Source of the DNA: Treponema sp.
Lineage (GTDB): Bacteria; Spirochaetota; Spirochaetia; Treponematales; Breznakiellaceae
Length of the DNA: 44,433 nucleotides
NCBI GenBank assembly: GCA_031266075.1
Contig: JAISBS010000091.1
Location: forward strand, 1-44,433
Direction of reading: 5' to 3'
In this document: positions 9,531-42,101 of the stretch, one piece after another
How the letters are laid out: each line of letters starts with the position of its first letter
How positions within the stretch are numbered: position 1 is the stretch's first letter
Made by a program: the position numbers and the translations under genes
The notes under the pieces: model-generated
The model's database searches: none
What the model was told of the DNA's origin: nothing
The model's input: the letters and a program-made list of their open reading frames with translations, nothing else

Positions 9531-11410
9531 AAACCGTATTCCGCCAGAGTATGCTGGTGCTGTCCCTCACTACATTGGTGCTTTCCCTTTCCTTTATCGT
9601 ATCGGTACTGCTCTTTATGGACGGCCTCTACTACGAAACCAACAGCCGCAGCCTCCGGGAAACCACCCGGCTGCTTTTCGCGGCCCTGCCGCCGGATCAG
9701 CTCCGCGCCGTTTTTGCGGGGGGGGGAGGCCGGGCGCCGTGGCTCGCGGAGATCCCCGGCGAAAGCCCCTACCGGATCAGCTTTATCGGAAAAGACGGCA
9801 GGGTGCTGGCGGATTCCCGGTTTCCTCCCGGTGATCTGGAAAACCACGGGGAACGGCCCGAGGTACGGGATGCGCTGGAAGGCCGGGAAGGGCAGGCCCG
9901 GCGAAGTTCCGCCAGTCTGGGAACGGAACTGCTGTACTACGCCCTGCCGGTCTACGAAGAACCGGGGAATTTTGCCCCGGCTCCGGCGGCTCTTTCCGCC
10001 CCCCCCCGAATTGCCGGAGTGTTCCGCCTTTCTGTGGAGACGCCGAATTTTCAGCGCCGGATTTCCCCCGCGGCCCCGCCTCTGCTGGCCCTCGGCGGCG
10101 TTCTTTTTTTTCTGGCCCTCATGCTGGTGTCCCTCTTTTCCCGCTCCCTTTCCCGGTCCTTTACCCGGCTGGCGGAAATGGCCCAATCCGTGAACTCCCC
10201 GGAAAATTTCCGGCGGCTCATCAATTCCCCCCGGCTCCTGTCGGATACCGAAGAATGTATCACCCTGGAGCGGGCCCTCAAATCCATGGCTGCGGAGTTG
10301 GGCGGGCGGATAGAGCGGGCCCGGCGGGAAGGCCGGAGGCTGGAAGCGATCCTCAACGGTATGTCGGAGGGGGTTTTTGCCGTGGATGAAAACGGGCGGC
10401 TCCATCTGGCAAACCGGCGGGCCCGGGAACTCTTCGGCATTGACGGAGAGGCGGACATACGGGCCCTGACTTTGCTGGAAGCCGCCCGATCCGCGGAACT
10501 GGAGGAGGCCGCCCGGGAAGCCCGGACGGACGGCGGCCCGGTGGAACGGGAAATCACCTGGCACGGCGCCGGGGTTCAACGCCGCTTTCAGGTCTTCGCC
10601 GCCCCCTTTGAACCCGGCCCCGGCGGGGAGGAACAAAATTCCGCAGGCCGGTGGCAGAACCGCCGGGACGGCGGCAGGGGCGTGGTGCTGGTGTTGAACG
10701 ATGTTACCCGGCTCCACAGGCTGGAACAGGTCCGCAAGGATTTTGCCGCCAATGTGTCCCACGAACTGCGGACGCCTATCCAGATTGTGAAGGGCTTTGC
10801 GGAGACCCTGCTGGATTCCCCGCTGGAAGACCGGGAACAGATCCGCCGCTGCGTCAGCCTGATCGAAAAAAACGCCCTGGCCATGGAGAACCTGACCAAC
10901 GACCTTTTAAGCCTGGTGAGCCTGGAGGACGAAAACAGCCCCAGGCCGGAGATGAAAGAAACGGCTGTTCAAACCCTGCTGGAAGAAGCGGTGCAGCCGG
11001 TAAAAAAAGCCGCGGAGGAAAAAAATATCGCCCTCAGCGTTGCCTGTCCCCGGGAGCTTTCCGCCGGCCTTAACGGGCCCCTTATCGTCCAGGCCCTGAT
11101 CAATCTTTTGGATAACGGGATAAAATATTCCCCCAGGGATTCAAAGCTCTTTCTCGAAGCCTCATCAGATGCCGGGGAACTCCGCTTTACCGTGAAGGAT
11201 CAGGGGGCGGGTATTCCCCCGGAACATCTGGACCGGATATTCGAGCGTTTTTACCGGGTTGACCGGAGCCGGAGCCAGGATCCCGGCGGCACGGGCCTGG
11301 GCCTTGCCATTGTCCGCCACATTGCCCTGCTCCACCGGGGAACCGTTGAGGTGGAAAGCCACGCCGGGGAAGGCTCGGTTTTCAGGATTCGGATTCCCCG
11401 TTTGCCCTGA
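9527..11410 (+). CDS. phoR: PhoR-type sensor histidine kinase
   Basis: A 627-residue inner-membrane kinase started by a GTG that overlaps the phoB stop (GTGA). The order is helix 1 (about 8-30), an extracytoplasmic domain of roughly 150 residues (with FIGKDGRVLADSRFP, Cache-like in style), helix 2 (about 180-205), HAMP, a PAS segment (LEAILNGMSEGVFAVDENG), the dimerisation/phosphoacceptor motif NVSHELRTP with His412, the N box NLLDNGIKYSP, DQGAGIPPEH, and GGTGLGLAIV. A G9 run at 9718-9726 and a C9 run at 9999-10007 lie in the sensor-domain coding part. The gene is intact here. It is the cognate kinase of PhoB by position. Confidence 0.95.
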   Translation: MKTVFRQSMLVLSLTTLVLSLSFIVSVLLFMDGLYYETNSRSLRETTRLLFAALPPDQLRAVFAGGGGRAPWLAEIPGESPYRISFIGKDGRVLADSRFPPGDLENHGERPEVRDALEGREGQARRSSASLGTELLYYALPVYEEPGNFAPAPAALSAPPRIAGVFRLSVETPNFQRRISPAAPPLLALGGVLFFLALMLVSLFSRSLSRSFTRLAEMAQSVNSPENFRRLINSPRLLSDTEECITLERALKSMAAELGGRIERARREGRRLEAILNGMSEGVFAVDENGRLHLANRRARELFGIDGEADIRALTLLEAARSAELEEAAREARTDGGPVEREITWHGAGVQRRFQVFAAPFEPGPGGEEQNSAGRWQNRRDGGRGVVLVLNDVTRLHRLEQVRKDFAANVSHELRTPIQIVKGFAETLLDSPLEDREQIRRCVSLIEKNALAMENLTNDLLSLVSLEDENSPRPEMKETAVQTLLEEAVQPVKKAAEEKNIALSVACPRELSAGLNGPLIVQALINLLDNGIKYSPRDSKLFLEASSDAGELRFTVKDQGAGIPPEHLDRIFERFYRVDRSRSQDPGGTGLGLAIVRHIALLHRGTVEVESHAGEGSVFRIRIPRLP

Positions 11411-13391: not shown

Positions 13392-13740
13392 AGCTACTTA
13401 TACATCATGTCCGGGCAGCGAATCAACGCGGTCCCGGACTAAAGAGGGGGGGGGGCTGTTTCCAAACCTTTTTTCGCAGGTAGCCGGGGGCGGCACGGAT
13501 GCCGCCCCACAATGACGGCCGGAATGCGAAGCGTTCTGAATCGGCACAGATGCCGCCCGCCCCCCCTGCGGCCGGGCCAAGGTACCGGCCGACCCCCCAG
13601 GGTGATGTTATTACCGCTGTTAGGGGGGCGCCGTGTTACCTGTACGCTGGACAGGCTCAATATTTCGCCTGCTTGATTGGGCGCCCCCTGAGCTCCAAAA
13701 GTTTTTGCTTCGCAAAAACGCTTTTCCGCTACCCCCCGGC
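13392..13740. other. gene-free GC-rich gap with hairpins and a G10 run
   Basis: I find no credible gene here. A run of ten G occurs at 13446-13455. GGCGGCA-CGGA-TGCCGCC forms a hairpin near 13490-13507, and a related GGCACAGATGCCG lies near 13543. The structured element at 13622-13689 is listed separately. GTTTTTGC-TTC-GCAAAAAC (13701-13719) is a perfect hairpin inside weaker AAAAG/CTTTT arms. Confidence 0.6.
13622..13689. other. predicted three-way-junction structure
   Basis: The outer arms are AGGGGGGCGCC (13622-13632) and GGCGCCCCCT (13680-13689). Inside are two hairpins, CCTGT-ACGCTGG-ACAGG and, overlapping its end, CAGGC-TCAATATTTC-GCCTG. The layout is an outer stem with two inner stem-loops, as in a small folded RNA. 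The two inner hairpins share a few bases, so they may be alternatives. No known RNA family is recognised. Confidence 0.45.
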
Positions 13741-27781: not shown

Positions 27782-28714
27782 TCACGGGGCTGTTTGAGGA
27801 TCGACGTAAACTTCCGCGGGCCTGGTTCCCCTCCGCAGCCGGAAATCAACTTTCCCCAGAAGCCGCACTTCGTGAAGGGCGGGCCGGTTCCGTCCGGCGA
27901 GGGACGGGCGGTACTGCACCGTAATTTCAAAGGGAAATTTCATGAACGGAAAGGCGGCGGTGAAGGCGGGGCCAATGCTAAAGCAGTAGCGGAGGTCATT
28001 CAGGCCGGCGCCGTAGATCGTGGATTCGGGGGAAAATTCACCGGTCAGGGGGAGGCCGAAGCGAAGCGCCGTTCCGCCGGGCAGAGGATAACTGAACCGG
28101 GGTTCCAGTTCAAAAACGGCGTCCAGCGGATGGTTCACCATCTGCCGGTCAAAGGCGGGGTTGCTCGACTTCTGTTCGGGGCTGTATACCAGTTCCGCAG
28201 ACACATTCAGCAAAAAAAGGGGATGAAACCGGTAACCGTAGTAGAGCCTGAACCCCAGCCCCCAAAGATGGGAACCGGGTTCCAGCGCGGAGCCGTTCCC
28301 CGAAGGCATGGACACCTTGAGGGCCAGCGCGGCGGAAAGGGCCGTCTTTTCCGATGACGCCGGGGCTTTTTCCCCGATGAACCGCAGTTTGATCCCCAGC
28401 AGCGGGTCCGCAAAAAGACCGGTTTTCCCATCCTCTGTTTCACCGTAGGGGAAAACGCCGGGGAGCCATTCGGCACAGATAGCGGCCCAGGGGGTAACGC
28501 CGTATTCAAGGGCCGCCCCCAGACCGAAATACGTGAGACTTTGGGGCCCCGGAAGGGGGGAATTCCAGCTGTGGCTGCCGTTTCCGTACGAGGCCCCAAG
28601 GGTGGCGCGCAGCACCCCCTCGGGGGGAGTTTCCGGTTCCCCGGCGGCGACAATGACGGTTCCTGATGTCAAAAGGGCGGCGCAGCACAGCGACCTGATG
28701 GTTCGTATATTCAT
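27782..28714 (-). CDS. predicted outer-membrane beta-barrel protein
   Basis: A 310-residue secreted protein with an N-terminal signal (SLCCAALLTSGTVIVAAG). The mature part is made of alternating aromatic/polar strands joined by short turns, for example LTYFGLGAALEYGVTPWAA, HLWGLGFRLYYGYRFHPLF, and PFEITVQYRPSLAG, as expected for a barrel in the outer membrane. It does not end in an aromatic residue. The ATG at 28714 is preceded by GGCAGGAT. It is the last gene of the surface-protein operon. No substrate or exact family is recognised. Confidence 0.75.
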   Translation of the reverse strand: MNIRTIRSLCCAALLTSGTVIVAAGEPETPPEGVLRATLGASYGNGSHSWNSPLPGPQSLTYFGLGAALEYGVTPWAAICAEWLPGVFPYGETEDGKTGLFADPLLGIKLRFIGEKAPASSEKTALSAALALKVSMPSGNGSALEPGSHLWGLGFRLYYGYRFHPLFLLNVSAELVYSPEQKSSNPAFDRQMVNHPLDAVFELEPRFSYPLPGGTALRFGLPLTGEFSPESTIYGAGLNDLRYCFSIGPAFTAAFPFMKFPFEITVQYRPSLAGRNRPALHEVRLLGKVDFRLRRGTRPAEVYVDPQTAP

Positions 28715-28731
28715 TTATCCTGCCTTGCTGA

Positions 28732-29265
28732 TTAAAAACTGAAACGGTGGCCCGCGGTGAAACCGACGCCCCAGATAAAGGGGTGGCCCAGACGGACGGC
28801 GGCTTCCGCGTAAAAGCCGCCCAAAAAAAAGTACCGGAAACCGGCGGCGAAATCCATGAGGGCGGTGTAGGTCTGCCGCCCTTCCTCCTGATACACGGAG
28901 AGCCCCGCTTCCAGTTGGGTAAAGGCCCCGCCGAGCCCCAGTTTCCAGGGGTACAGGCGGAAGTAGAGGCCCGCGTCGACGGTGGAAACCGCCGCAAAAT
29001 CGGAGCCCATGGCCCCCCGAACGCCTGCGGCAATATGGCGGTTCAGCACATGGCGGTCCAGGGTTACGGAAAAACCATGGGCCCAGCCTTCCCGGGCGGC
29101 CATGTTCATTTCGATGCCGCCGCCCAGCGCGTAGGGGTGGATCTGCCAGTCCTGTTCCTGAGCCCCCGCAGGGACGGCGTGGCCCAGCAGCAGGGCGAGG
29201 GTCGCGGCGCAGGCAAAAAGCGCCGCGGCGGGCCGGGGTTTTTCCCGGTGGTGGAGATGATTCAT
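28732..29265 (-). CDS. small outer-membrane beta-barrel protein
   Basis: A 177-residue protein with a signal peptide (about 14-36, ending VPAGAQ) and an eight-strand-like pattern (IHPYALGGGIEMNM; GFSVTLDRHVLNRHIAAGV; VDAGLYFRLYPWKLGLGG). It ends FTAGHRFSF, with the terminal Phe typical of outer-membrane barrels inserted by BamA. The ATG at 29265 overlaps the stop of the beta-helix lipoprotein gene (ATGA), so the two are translationally coupled when that gene is in frame. Confidence 0.8.
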   Translation of the reverse strand: MNHLHHREKPRPAAALFACAATLALLLGHAVPAGAQEQDWQIHPYALGGGIEMNMAAREGWAHGFSVTLDRHVLNRHIAAGVRGAMGSDFAAVSTVDAGLYFRLYPWKLGLGGAFTQLEAGLSVYQEEGRQTYTALMDFAAGFRYFFLGGFYAEAAVRLGHPFIWGVGFTAGHRFSF

Positions 29266-30657
29266 TCTTCGTAGGCCCCCAGATCAATGGTGGTGTTTTT
29301 AATGCGCCCGGTATATAAGCCGGGATCGGGAGTATCGGGAGTAGTCCCGGCATTTGTGTACACGTACCGCGCGCCCACGGCGGACCGTACGTCGGACTTG
29401 AGGAAATAGTCGATGGCATGGCTTGTGTCGTTCGCATCCGCGGCGGCGGCGTCAGCCAGATTCCGGCTGAGCAGGTTCGTTACGTTAGTCATCCATGTTC
29501 CTGTCAGACCGTTAAGGAGAAAGGCCGCCGCGGCGGAGGCCGATGTGGTGGGCGGATATTTGGCGTTGTCGCCCGCGTTGAGCAGCGGAGTTCCCGTAAG
29601 ATAGGGATGCGTAATGCTGTAGCTGCCGGAATCCAGGTTGTCTGAACCCGGTGAACCGCCGGAGCCTGAACCGTTCAGTTCCTCGTCCGTTTTCCCCTGG
29701 GCCAGACTTCTGATGTAGGTAATAATGCCGGTATATCCGCCCGAGGCGAAGGGATCCCGGATATTGTCGCTGGCGGTTCCCGCTGCCGTATCTGTATTGC
29801 CCCAGATGACGCTGTTGGTGAACCTGATGTCATAGTGAGCGGCCAGGTTGACGCTGGCAGTGGAACCGGGAGTGCCGGGATTGGGGTTATACGTGTTGAC
29901 GCCGCCGCCCCCCCAGTCCGCGCTGGTATTCCGGCTCTCGTTACCGGCTACGGTAACATTGGTAAAACGCCCTTTCACCGAACCGTCCACGCTCGCAAAT
30001 TGAATGGCGATGCCGCCGCCCCTGCCGGAACCGTCGACGGCCGTGTTATCCGCCACCAGCACATTGGTAAACACGGCGCAGACATAGCCCTGGTGTGAGG
30101 TGGATGTTTCCGCCATAAAGTAATTGTTAAGACCGCCTCCATGGCTGCCCTGGTTCCCGGTGATTTTTCCGTTGGTAAGAATTAAAATTCCGGCGACATT
30201 AGGGTTCGATGAATCACACCGCAGGAAAATGCCCCCGCCCGCGGCGACAGCCGTGTTGCCGGTAATGAGGGCGTTCGTCATAATGAGCCGGCTCTGCAGC
30301 GTATAGATTCCCGCTCCCGCTCCCCAGCCGCCGGGGCCTGCCCGGTTTCCCTCTATGGTTACATAGGTCATCGTTGTATAGGAATAGCTGTTATAAATGC
30401 CGCCGCCGCTGCTGGTCCCGGTGTTGCCGTCAATGGCTACATCAATATACCGAGACCAGCAGCTTTCATCGTAGACGCCGCCGCCTGAACCCGCCACGTT
30501 GTTTGTTATCCGGACCCGGCTAAAAACAGGCCGGGCGTTTGAATAGTTGCTGACGCCGCCGCCGTAATTGGCGGAGTTTTCTTTTATGAGGCTGTTGGTG
30601 ATCCGCGGGGCGCAGAGGACGTTGTCGGTATTCGCGCTATTGGCATAGCTGTATATG
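29262..30657 (-). CDS. C-terminal part of the polymorphic beta-helix lipoprotein (out of frame here)
   Basis: This frame continues the upstream 30637-33405 coding region after the G11 tract. It encodes about 460 residues of right-handed beta-helix rungs: repeats of the form GGGIYN/NVTIxxNxA, for example SGGGIYNSYSYTTMTYVTIE and SANYGGGVSNYSN just after the tract. It closes with IDLGAYEE. The GTG at 30497 is not a credible separate start because the repeat pattern runs through it. It would be made only if the tract loses one G or gains two. Its stop overlaps the next barrel gene. Confidence 0.75.
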
Positions 30658-33405
30658 CCCCCCCCCCCGGCCCCCGGAAGAGCTGTTGTTTTGGATAGTT
30701 ACGTTATTCAGGACCGGCTCGCATTTGTTGCCCGTCCCCGGTGTGTACGCGAGATTGGCCATGCCGCCCCCGTACCCCACCACGGTATTGTTCCGAATGG
30801 TAACATTGGTGAGTACGGGATTACATACGGCGGTAACACCCCCGCCGGTGGCGATATTGTAGATCCCCGCGCCGTAGGCCGCGGTGTCAGTGGCATACGC
30901 GGAGTTCATCTGGCCGCCGTAGGTTGCCGCCCGGTTGTTTTCGATGATCACGTTGGTAAAGGAGGGGCTGGCGTTGTGGTTGTAGACCCCCGCGCCGGAA
31001 CGCTGGTAAATAACCGCCCCACCGGTGGTGATGGAACCCGTAAACGATGAAGAGCCCTGCCCGTTGGCGATAGTCAGGCTGTGAAGCAGGGTTCCCGGAC
31101 TTGCGGGAATGTTTACGGCCAGTACCGTGTGGCAGGAATTGCCGCCCCCGGAAAGGATCGTTTTGCCGGCGTTGTGGCTGGGGGTTTCCGGGTTGTGCGC
31201 CGGCCCTTCGGTTCCTTCAAAACCGCCGTAAATTTTCAGCCCCGGCCTTAGCACAAAAGATTTGTTTTTCCCTTCGGCGTCCCGTCCGGCGGTCTGGATT
31301 CCGTAGTTGCTGCCGTTGGGGCTTATCACGGAACCGGTCTGACCGTCGCCGCTGATCCCTTCCGCCCATGATTCGGGGGTATAGGTTCCCTTGAGTATCC
31401 AGATGGCGTCGTAGTTGGTTCCCCCCGTTGCGTCTACGCCGTTTGTGAAGTAGCGGTTAATGGTGTCCTGCAAATCCGTAGAGGCGTCCGCCCAGGAATG
31501 GCCGATGCCGCCGGGACGGCGGTAGGGTTTGTCCGCCTGGGAAACCGCCGCTACATAGGCGATGCCGGGTTTTCCCGCCGCGATGTCTTCGTATGTTATG
31601 TCAAACTTGACCAGCCGGTCGGGCATTTTGAATTTCCAGACTTTGTAGGTATCACCGGCAGAGCTTGCCGGATCGGGGTGTACTTTCAGGTTTTCCAGCA
31701 TCCCGTCGCCGGTATAGTTTGAACCCAGCGTAATTTCTACGGGAGCAATGGCAATCCCCGTTATCTTGTATCCCGTGTTGGCCTGAACCGTCAGGGTTAT
31801 CACCTCGCCGGGGAGGGCGTTGCTTACCGGTGTTGGAACGCCGGCCACCAGCGCGTTGGCCCGGACCTTTCCCCCCGGATAGGAGAAGCCGGCGGGCACA
31901 TGGGTGTCAAGCGGAACCACAATGTCGTTGACCCCGATCCGCATCAGGGTAAGCAGGTAGACCTGATCCGCCTTGAGGGGGGTCGTAACCCTGATCTCCA
32001 CCGTGATTCTCCCGATAAAGGCAAATTCCAGAGCGCCGGAAACGCCGGAACTCCATGTTCCATTTCCGTCCTCCCTGCGGTAGGATACCGCGCCGCCGCT
32101 TTCCGGCGTGGCGCTGACCCGTACCGTTTCAACATTGGCCGCAAGCTGCAGGTGATGGGCCAGCGTACCGGGGAGGAACCCTGCCGGAAAAAGCTCCACG
32201 CCGGGAACCGCCATGTCCTTTACGGAAATTCCCGTGATGGAGGCGGAGGGAACTTCCCGGCGGATCAGCGCCGTGTAGATCATGTCTTCCATACCACTGT
32301 GGCTGACCGTGATCCGCAGGGCCGTGGCGCGTTTGTCCGGGTCAGGGACAAAGGGAAAAACCGGAGGACTTGCCGCGGCAACAGGGGCCCAGGTTCCCGC
32401 GTTGGTTACGGTGGCGGTGGAAAGATTATAGTCGTAATCGTAACTCTGGGAAAACGCCAGCGTGGAGCCCGGCACGGCGGCCAGGATGTCAAGGCTTATT
32501 TCGGCGGTGTCAAAGGGAACCGTCGCCTGATAGATCCCGCCGCTGGGGACAAAGCTCTGGACCTTTCCCAGCCAGTCATCTCCTGCCGCCGCCGCCCCCG
32601 CGTGAACCTTGAGCCGGGAAAGATAGGCCGTTGCGCTGTCCCGGCTTATATTGATGACATACTCGCCGTCATCCATGCCGCCCCCCAGCCCGCGGGCGGT
32701 CAATTTCACCTGACAGGAGAGTTCGGGGTAAAAGTCCAGCAGGATTTCCGTGCCGGAAAGGGCGCCGTTTTCGGTTTCCACGCCGTCCACCAGTTTTTTA
32801 TAGTCCACCATGCCGCCGGGCAGGGGAGCTACCTCAAATTTGAGCTTCGTCGCATAATAGGGAACCTTGATTCCGTAGGCGAGTCCTGGGGGAAAGAAAT
32901 TATTCAGATAGTTGACGGCTTCAAACGCGGCGGGGTCGGCGGCGGTAAAGTTGGTGGTAAAAAGGCTTAAACCGGCAAGCCGGGCGGCAGTCTCTCCCCG
33001 GCGGACCGTGATGGTGTACACTGTGGGGGACATATATTTCCGGGTGGCGGTAACCGTAAAGGTAAAGACCGTGTCGATTTCCTCAGGGAAAAGCTCGAAT
33101 ACGCCGGAATCGTTCAGGCGCCGTCCACCATGTTTTAGAGCGTACGTGGCGGTTTCGCCGCTGGCCCTGAGGGTAATCGTGTCCGCTTCAAAGGGAATGA
33201 CGGCGGTGTAGGAGGTGGTCCTGGGGTTAAAAAACGGATCTATCATGCCGCCCCCGCTGCCTACGCCCGCTATGCCGTACCGGAGTTCCAGCGAGGAAAA
33301 ATACACCGGGGCCCGGAGCAGCTCCTGTACCAGCGTATTTTCACAGGCGGTCAAAAGGCCCAGCGTCAGTAAAAAACCCACAAACCGTTTCATCGCCTTG
33401 ATCAT
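30637..33405 (-). CDS. surface lipoprotein, cadherin-like repeats plus beta-helix, N-terminal part
   Basis: This frame encodes 922 residues. The N-terminus has a lipobox, LLTAC (Cys near 20), so the protein should be a lipoprotein. Several 90-100-residue units follow that resemble the cadherin-like beta-sandwich family (SYTAVIPFEADTITLRASGE; YTITVRRGE). Next come a Gly-Tyr-type repeat (ITLTVQANTGYKITGIAI) and an anchor segment typical of treponemal polymorphic proteins (IWILKGTYTP; FVLRPGLKIYGGFEGTE), then Gly-rich beta-helix rungs. At the G11 tract the frame ends with GGRGGGHIQLCQ and TAG at 30637. With 10 or 13 G it would run on to 29262, about 1,380 residues. ATG 33405 is chosen; ATG 33393 is possible. 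Confidence 0.8.
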   Translation of the reverse strand: MIKAMKRFVGFLLTLGLLTACENTLVQELLRAPVYFSSLELRYGIAGVGSGGGMIDPFFNPRTTSYTAVIPFEADTITLRASGETATYALKHGGRRLNDSGVFELFPEEIDTVFTFTVTATRKYMSPTVYTITVRRGETAARLAGLSLFTTNFTAADPAAFEAVNYLNNFFPPGLAYGIKVPYYATKLKFEVAPLPGGMVDYKKLVDGVETENGALSGTEILLDFYPELSCQVKLTARGLGGGMDDGEYVINISRDSATAYLSRLKVHAGAAAAGDDWLGKVQSFVPSGGIYQATVPFDTAEISLDILAAVPGSTLAFSQSYDYDYNLSTATVTNAGTWAPVAAASPPVFPFVPDPDKRATALRITVSHSGMEDMIYTALIRREVPSASITGISVKDMAVPGVELFPAGFLPGTLAHHLQLAANVETVRVSATPESGGAVSYRREDGNGTWSSGVSGALEFAFIGRITVEIRVTTPLKADQVYLLTLMRIGVNDIVVPLDTHVPAGFSYPGGKVRANALVAGVPTPVSNALPGEVITLTVQANTGYKITGIAIAPVEITLGSNYTGDGMLENLKVHPDPASSAGDTYKVWKFKMPDRLVKFDITYEDIAAGKPGIAYVAAVSQADKPYRRPGGIGHSWADASTDLQDTINRYFTNGVDATGGTNYDAIWILKGTYTPESWAEGISGDGQTGSVISPNGSNYGIQTAGRDAEGKNKSFVLRPGLKIYGGFEGTEGPAHNPETPSHNAGKTILSGGGNSCHTVLAVNIPASPGTLLHSLTIANGQGSSSFTGSITTGGAVIYQRSGAGVYNHNASPSFTNVIIENNRAATYGGQMNSAYATDTAAYGAGIYNIATGGGVTAVCNPVLTNVTIRNNTVVGYGGGMANLAYTPGTGNKCEPVLNNVTIQNNSSSGGRGGGHIQLCQ
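30658..30668 (-). repeat. G11 homopolymer tract, candidate phase-variation switch
   Basis: Eleven C on the plus strand, hence eleven G in the coding strand, lie between the two halves of the beta-helix lipoprotein. With 11 G, CAT ATA CAG follows and a stop is met; with 10 or 13 G, GGC ATA TAC AGC follows and the repeat rungs continue. A second run of five G lies just upstream. A homopolymer sequencing or assembly error is the main alternative. Confidence 0.85.
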
Positions 33406-40260: not shown

Positions 40261-40283
40261 TTTCCGGGTTGTCTACCCGGAAA
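40261..40283 (+). promoter_or_regulatory. hairpin just upstream of the rho start
   Basis: TTTCCGGGT (40261-40269) and ACCCGGAAA (40275-40283) are perfect complements with a five-base loop, 28 bases before the rho ATG and 14 bases before the ribosome site AGGTGG. It could control translation or leader attenuation. Confidence 0.6.
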
Positions 40284-40310
40284 CATGGTAATCCAATAGG
40301 TGGTTCAATA

Positions 40311-42101
40311 ATGGCAATGGTACGGAGGGGCCGCAAGCCCAAGATCGTGGAAAACGATGAAATGTTGAGTTTTGATCCGGTAAACCCGGATTCAGGCGCC
40401 GGGGCCGGGGAAAACGAAAACGGCGCCGGCGACTGGGAGGGTTCCCCCTCAGAGGCGGATGCGGCCTTTGACGACGAGGGCGGCGAGAAAAACGGCGGGC
40501 GGGCGGTGGTTGTCCGGGCCCGGACAAAACGAGCCGTCCCAAGGCCGGAGGGCCGGGGCCGCTACAACCGGCAGGGCGCCGCTTCCGGCGGGGCCCCCTA
40601 CGGCGCGGGTCCATCAGGCCCGTTTTCGGGGAATAACGGGAACCGGGGGCCTGCAGCCTGGGAAAACAGCGGCGGGGACTCCGCCGGGGCGCCTGCTCCG
40701 GGCCTTCCCCTTGCCGGGCCGGGAGAGACTCCCGCGCCCCTCCAGGGACTGCCGGTCCGTCTGCCCTCTATGCCGGACATCTATGGCCGGCCCGAACCCC
40801 GGCTGGATCAGGACAACGGCAAGCCCCGGCTCACTATCAATGAGCTGATCCGCCTGAACATGATCGATTTGCGGGAACTGGCGACCTCGTACAACATTTC
40901 CCATGACGATATGGTGGCCCTTAAAAAACAGGAAATCGTCTTTTCGATCCTCAAGGCCCACACCGAGCGGGGGGGGATCATCTACGCCTACGGCTCCCTG
41001 GAAATTCTGCCCGACAGTTACGGCTTTCTGCGGAGCCCCCAGAATTCCTACCTTCCCGGCCCCGACGACATTTACATCAGCCCCAGCCAGATCCGGCTCT
41101 TTGCCCTGAAAACCGGGGACACGGTCTACGGCCAGATCCGCAGCCCCAAGGAGCAGGAACGGTTTTTCGCCATGCTCCGGGTGGAAACGGTAAACTACGA
41201 CGACCCCACGGTGGCCCAGAACCGGATTCCCTTTGACAACCTGACCCCCCTGTACCCGAACCAGAAACTGGATTTGGAAACGGTTACCGAGGGTATATCC
41301 GAGCGGATCATCAACCTCTTCTGCCCCATCGGCAAGGGCCAGCGGGCCCTGATTGTGGCCCCGCCCCGGACGGGAAAAACCATTATGATGCAGAAGATCG
41401 CCAACGCCATCACCAAAAACCACCCCGAGGTCTACCTTATCGTGCTGCTCATCGACGAGCGGCCCGAGGAAGTTACCGACATGGAGCGGACCGTCCGGGC
41501 AGAGGTGATTTCGTCAACCTTTGACGAACAGGCCAGCCGCCACGTCCAGGTTACCGAAATGGTACTGGAAAAGGCCAAACGCCTCGTGGAGCATAAAAAA
41601 GACGTGGTCATACTGTTGGATTCCATCACCCGCCTGGCCCGGGCCTATAACCAGACCGTCCCCACCTCGGGGAAGATTCTCTCAGGCGGTGTGGACTCCA
41701 ACGCCCTCCACAAGCCCAAGCGGTTTTTCGGGGCCGCCCGGAATATTGAGGAAGGGGGAAGCCTGACCATCATCTCCACCGCCCTGATCGAAACCGGCAG
41801 CCGCATGGACGAGGTTATCTTTGAAGAATTCAAGGGTACGGGGAATCTGGAAATCGACCTGGACCGGCGGATCAGCGACCGGCGGCTCTTCCCGGCGATC
41901 AACATCAAAAAGTCCGGCACCCGGAAGGAAGAACTGCTCCTCAGCGAGGAAGAACTCCAGAAGATCTGGGTTCTGCGGAAGGTCATCAATCCCATGGACG
42001 ACATCGAGATCATCGAGCTTCTTATTGACAGGATGAAAAAATCCCGGAATAATGAAGCGTTCCTGAGATCCATGAACACCGGCAGCGCCGGGACAGATTG
42101 A
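40311..42101 (+). CDS. rho: Rho transcription terminator with long disordered N-terminus
   Basis: This 596-residue protein forms a hexameric RNA helicase that ends transcription. Residues 1 to about 175 are low-complexity (Gly, Ala, Glu, Pro, Arg) and probably disordered. The Rho N-domain ([20 protein letters not shown]) and the cold-shock-like RNA-binding domain ([30 protein letters not shown]) follow. The ATPase core has [14 protein letters not shown] (Walker A), [26 protein letters not shown] (Walker B), and [20 protein letters not shown] 40311 is chosen for its AGGTGG; a TTG at 40269 lies inside the hairpin. The 3' end is tandemly duplicated just after the stop. Confidence 0.97.

Follow-up and report, generated by a model that had tools for sequence, protein, structure and literature searches.

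Evading vertebrate immunity is the usual explanation for phase variation, and surface switching of this kind is known mainly from pathogens. Homopolymer tracts lying within coding genes give rise to translational phase variation (PMC2831843). In Neisseria, where a poly-G/C length of 9 serves as the threshold for phase-variable loci, the pilC gene carries a poly-C tract within its reading frame (PMC5953494); Campylobacter autotransporter genes with homopolymers and decay are a further case (PMC7168839). Among spirochetes, T. pallidum has poly-G tracts of 7-11 in promoters, which vary within isolates and alter expression (PMC7864442). The open-access literature searched yielded no account of homopolymer phase variation in the spirochete group considered here.

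The locus described in this study has features of both types of system. The window (the whole 44,433-nucleotide stretch of Treponema sp. DNA that was analysed) contains a run of exactly 11 G's on the minus (coding) strand at 30658-30668, read as C11 on the plus strand, which falls in a Gly-rich β-helix turn; no other G/C run in the genome is exactly 11 long. As in pilC and other translational phase-variation loci, this is a poly-G of at least 9 in the open reading frame of a surface protein, its length sets the frame, and both frames are intact. Unlike those loci, the tract lies about two thirds along the gene, not near the start, and is known here from one consensus length. With the poly-G promoters of T. 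pallidum (tprL, tp0126 and others) it shares the spirochete setting, the link to outer-membrane proteins and a length in the 7-11 range; however, the T. pallidum tracts work on transcription from the promoter (PMC7864442), whereas G11 sits in the coding region. No tract of the promoter or leader type is found in the window upstream of position 33405, where the gene begins, but a paralogue elsewhere in the genome has one (see below). The locus is thus a plausible candidate for the known class of translational poly-G/C phase variation.

Two open frames meet at the tract. The 5' part of the gene (30637-33405, minus strand) is a 922-aa ORF with a lipoprotein signal (LTAC), a Cadherin-like domain and the first β-helix turns. 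Its frame at the tract reads ...NNVTIQNNSSSGGRGGGHIQLCQ*, and translation through G11 gives ...SSSGGRGGGHIQLCQ before the ORF is closed by a premature stop at 30637-30639 (minus strand), 18 bases past the run. The 3' part (29262-30656, minus strand) reads GGGIYSYANSANTDNV... in another frame and stays open for 464 codons of continuing β-helix pattern, down to ...IDLGAYEE* at 29262. Scored for codon usage with the neighbouring genes as reference, the two gene parts (A and B) reach 0.21 and 0.14 in their own frame, while the two remaining sense frames score between -0.46 and -0.53; each side of G11 thus scores as coding in its own frame. A preliminary description of this DNA had proposed that G11 splits a large lipoprotein gene, that β-helix repeats continue on both sides in different frames, and that 10 or 13 G's would keep the frame. 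The arithmetic is correct, and the split is borne out by sequence, codon usage and intact homologues; the β-helix pattern does continue past the tract.

A family-wide search found homologues of the split lipoprotein in 16 other genomes of the same GTDB family. Those in other genera, judged where the contig permits, are intact single ORFs of about 1,460-1,770 aa (1525, 1551, 1466, 1547, 1565 and 1541 aa, for example), some of them in tandem. The lipoprotein start of the homologues, ACKNPYI..HNL.RPVYL, is similar to ACENTLVQELLRAPVYF of the window gene, and most of them share its type of ending, GAYE or GAFE followed by a single residue. Alignment places the second half in the C-terminal portions of the intact homologues, with residues 19-464 matching 1004-1466 of the homologue at L179. 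On these sequence comparisons, the two halves belong to a single gene, broken precisely at the tract. None of the homologues examined, including the remaining matches, many of which are shorter β-helix lipoproteins, contains a homopolymer split or an in-gene G-run longer than 9, and the same poly-G split was not found at other β-helix turns across 200 family genomes. Comparing tract length in related genomes had been put forward as a check on variation at the locus; it returned homologues without an equivalent in-gene tract, and as the one same-genus genome (G001) holds no ortholog of the split gene, only distant homologues are there to compare.

The split gene stands at the head of a set of three. 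Behind it lie a gene for a small exported barrel-type protein of 177 aa (28732-29265, minus strand), with homologues in 23 other genomes of 79 searched, and a third gene for a second outer-membrane-type protein of 310 aa (27782-28714, minus strand), whose PF13557 score of 21.5 bits is just under the cutoff of 22. This cassette of β-helix lipoprotein, small barrel and second outer-membrane-type protein is kept across genera of the family (L177-L181, compared with window positions 27782-33405), with tandem lipoprotein copies in some genomes; at L178, L179 and L180 the small barrel homologue directly follows the lipoprotein gene. A GGAGGA ribosome site for the next gene follows the lipoprotein stop in four of five relatives examined, whereas the window genes overlap instead, the barrel ATG sharing the sequence ATGA (29262-29265) with the stop of the second half. 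The preliminary description had seen this overlap and suggested that switching might also change barrel translation. The overlap is real but involves the distal stop and not the premature one, which lies 1.37 kb upstream of the barrel ATG; any effect on the barrel would therefore require lost coupling or polarity exerted by Rho. The operon showed no promoter-like site above chance. The cassette is not beside lgt in Treponema sp. Gx481_bin22 or Spirochaetaceae Pcl387_bin77, the named relatives of the lgt gene adjacent to it in the window. Scans of named genomes gave no match for the split gene itself. Going by the names of these lgt-relative MAGs, the bacterium carrying the locus is probably a termite-gut spirochete, with the Breznakiellaceae as its probable family.

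The product of the split gene matches PF12733 (Cadherin-like beta-sandwich) at residues 57-136 (32998-33237, minus strand) with 51.6 bits, above the curated cutoff of 24.2. In profile searches, the Chlamydia PMP repeat PF02415 (15 bits, cutoff 20.6) and the choice-of-anchor Q domain NF041518 (17.1, cutoff 25) remained below threshold. The GGG-[IV]-Y-N β-helix repeats and the C-terminal GAYE motif are shared with both of these groups; unlike them, the window protein is a lipoprotein and not an autotransporter, and both models score sub-cutoff. For the 464-aa second half, a structure predicted with no alignment had strands in the first 290 residues at a mean pLDDT of 41 and was unusable, and sequence searches of the PDB returned no match. 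The antigen or adhesin role that the preliminary description attached to switching is a guess, the family matches being the Cadherin-like domain and sub-threshold β-helix signals.

The most likely reading of the locus, to which we give a probability of roughly one half, is that G11 is a translational on/off site operating by slipped-strand mispairing and caught in the "off" state in the assembly. This was also the central proposal of the preliminary description; the single split gene, the lipoprotein start, the slippage-prone length and the many tracts at surface-lipoprotein genes speak for it. The locus itself is a single gene encoding a large exported lipoprotein, which combines the Cadherin-like domain with a long β-helix, and is the first in a three-gene surface cassette. 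Slipped-strand mispairing would alter the number of G's and put the frame on or off, so that a population would mix truncated products of 922 aa with full-length ones of about 1,380 aa, with whatever selective benefit such a mixture might carry. In the off state, the 922-aa lipoprotein would lack roughly a third of the full product. The first candidates for an in-frame start in the 3' part are GTG (30497) and ATG (30371); a clear Shine-Dalgarno sequence is missing from both, so the second half would have no nearby ribosome start and reinitiation would be unlikely. The barrel genes would come after 1.37 kb of untranslated message, and their expression could be lowered through lost coupling and the action of Rho, whose gene is present in the window at 40269-42101. 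Against a switch stand the single consensus sequence, a tract length within chance expectation and homologues without an in-gene tract longer than 9.

The length of G11 is by itself unremarkable. Extrapolation of background G/C run lengths, taken from 344 kb of this genome, predicts 1.6-7 exact-11 runs genome-wide against the 1 seen, and with G9 as the maximum in homologues the tract is neither longer than chance nor kept in relatives. Synonymous codon resampling of the gene produced a G-run of at least 11 in 4.7% of cases and of at least 10 in 24%, and the run may therefore stem from codon choice in a Gly-rich gene. What has to be explained is thus the break in a gene that is whole in its relatives. 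One could envision that a GGG-coded Gly-rich turn reached G11 by accident and slipped, leaving a frameshifted allele (an early pseudogene or a strain polymorphism) with no selected switching. We consider this somewhat unlikely. A run length expected from composition and codon use agrees with it, as do homologues that lack the tract and a same-genus genome that lacks the gene altogether, which may for that reason be dispensable; however, the 464 downstream codons are still open and coding-like, so that any break would have to be recent, and the cassette is conserved in other genomes. General frame damage was rejected as the cause of the split: lgt, the pyrophosphatase, pheT, the S41 peptidase and rho, all in the window, have family matches each in one frame, and G9/C9 tracts elsewhere lie mostly within long uninterrupted ORFs.

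Homopolymers of about this length are the commonest site of consensus errors, and the genome is a draft, 70% complete and in 116 contigs, some with artefact-like low-complexity G/C ends. The assembly might accordingly contain one G too many, the true majority length being in frame. This explanation appears unlikely: the mostly open frames around G9/C9 in coding genes tell against it, and so does the assembly of tracts of 14-18 in this genome with unique flanks on both sides. It is highly improbable that the G11 allele yields the full protein through ribosomal frameshifting or transcript slippage at the tract. A long homopolymer does span the junction of two open frames, but the homologues examined are continuous, none having such a junction, and no conserved shift site was found.

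Unlike G11, the longer tracts of this genome exceed what chance predicts. Only 0.02-0.25 exact-14 G/C runs are expected, and seven tracts of 14-18 were seen, by exported-protein genes or at contig ends. (The long low-complexity G/C ends of contigs C10, C20 and C89, at L047, L048 and L049, resemble sequencing artefacts and are not countable as tracts.) Long tracts here have their C's on the coding strand and lie ahead of genes for exported proteins, namely lipoprotein-like genes on contigs C4 and C54, tandem exported proteins on C69, a barrel-type protein on C3 and, on C81, the paralogue of the window lipoprotein. In this paralogue (L046), a C15 tract at 1231-1245 separates the lipobox from the only in-frame ATG, which is preceded by AAAAGGAG (Shine-Dalgarno). 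As the frame stays open from the ATG through C15 to the lipobox, the tract could act on translation. A leader similar to that of C81, with a 16-base tract, is found at 33944-33959 of contig C61 (L044), at the contig end.

The association extends to other members of the family. Four genomes were scored for lipoboxes in genes whose start follows a tract of at least 12 by 20-300 nt: this one, G001 of the same genus, and the complete family genomes G030 and G168. A lipobox is present in 11 of 29 such genes on the C-reading strand versus 0 of 30 on the other. Poly-C tracts of 12-19 occur about 100-230 nt upstream of lipoprotein starts at L147, L151, L155, L163, L135, L138 and L148 (G030, G168), and likewise at L154 (G001) and L041 (C4 of the present genome). 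Of 22 homologues of the split gene, three, all in other genera, carry C13-C21 no more than 250 nt ahead of the start: C14 at L178 (G142), C21 at L189 (G120) and C13 at L190 (G119), 28-248 nt from the start codon. A related tract pattern was detected in 104 of 200 family genomes, a figure that is only a rough guide since reversed-pattern controls match many genomes too. No sharp shared motif was found beside the poly-C tracts, whose flanks are only AT-rich, with an A preceding the tract. Most known tracts in this lineage lie upstream, with C on the coding strand, and G11, a G run within a gene, is their opposite, which counts against a switch there. The candidate homopolymer on/off sites at lipoprotein genes of the family are a more interesting lead than G11. 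We rate it at slightly less than even odds that a family of probable termite-gut spirochetes carries homopolymer on/off sites genome-wide on its surface lipoproteins (mostly poly-C near starts, here an in-gene poly-G), the cassette having been recruited independently in several genera, and that these non-pathogenic insect symbionts switch their surface.

Should the tract vary, an uncultured symbiont of the gut would have in this locus a surface on/off switch open to testing, one of a wider family set. Because phase variation is usually tied to vertebrate immunity, what a spirochete of the insect gut gains from surface switching, be it in relation to phages, protists or attachment, would become a question. 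Should it not vary, G11 would be an ordinary frameshift or a consensus error; the useful annotation would then be the conserved lipoprotein/barrel cassette.

Further G/C runs were also observed. Five of the twenty G/C runs of 9-11 in the genome are on this 44-kb contig, which makes up 2.3% of it (positions 9718, 9999, 13155, 13446 and 30658); the run at 13446-13455 consists of ten C's in the coding sense and precedes pheT by about 50 nt. Two further candidate in-gene tracts, both in frame and in favour of a switch, occur within the genus in genome G001: a G13 in the ORF of an AraC-type regulator (L134:1499-1511) and a G12 in a 596-aa ORF with no family match (L140:836-847).
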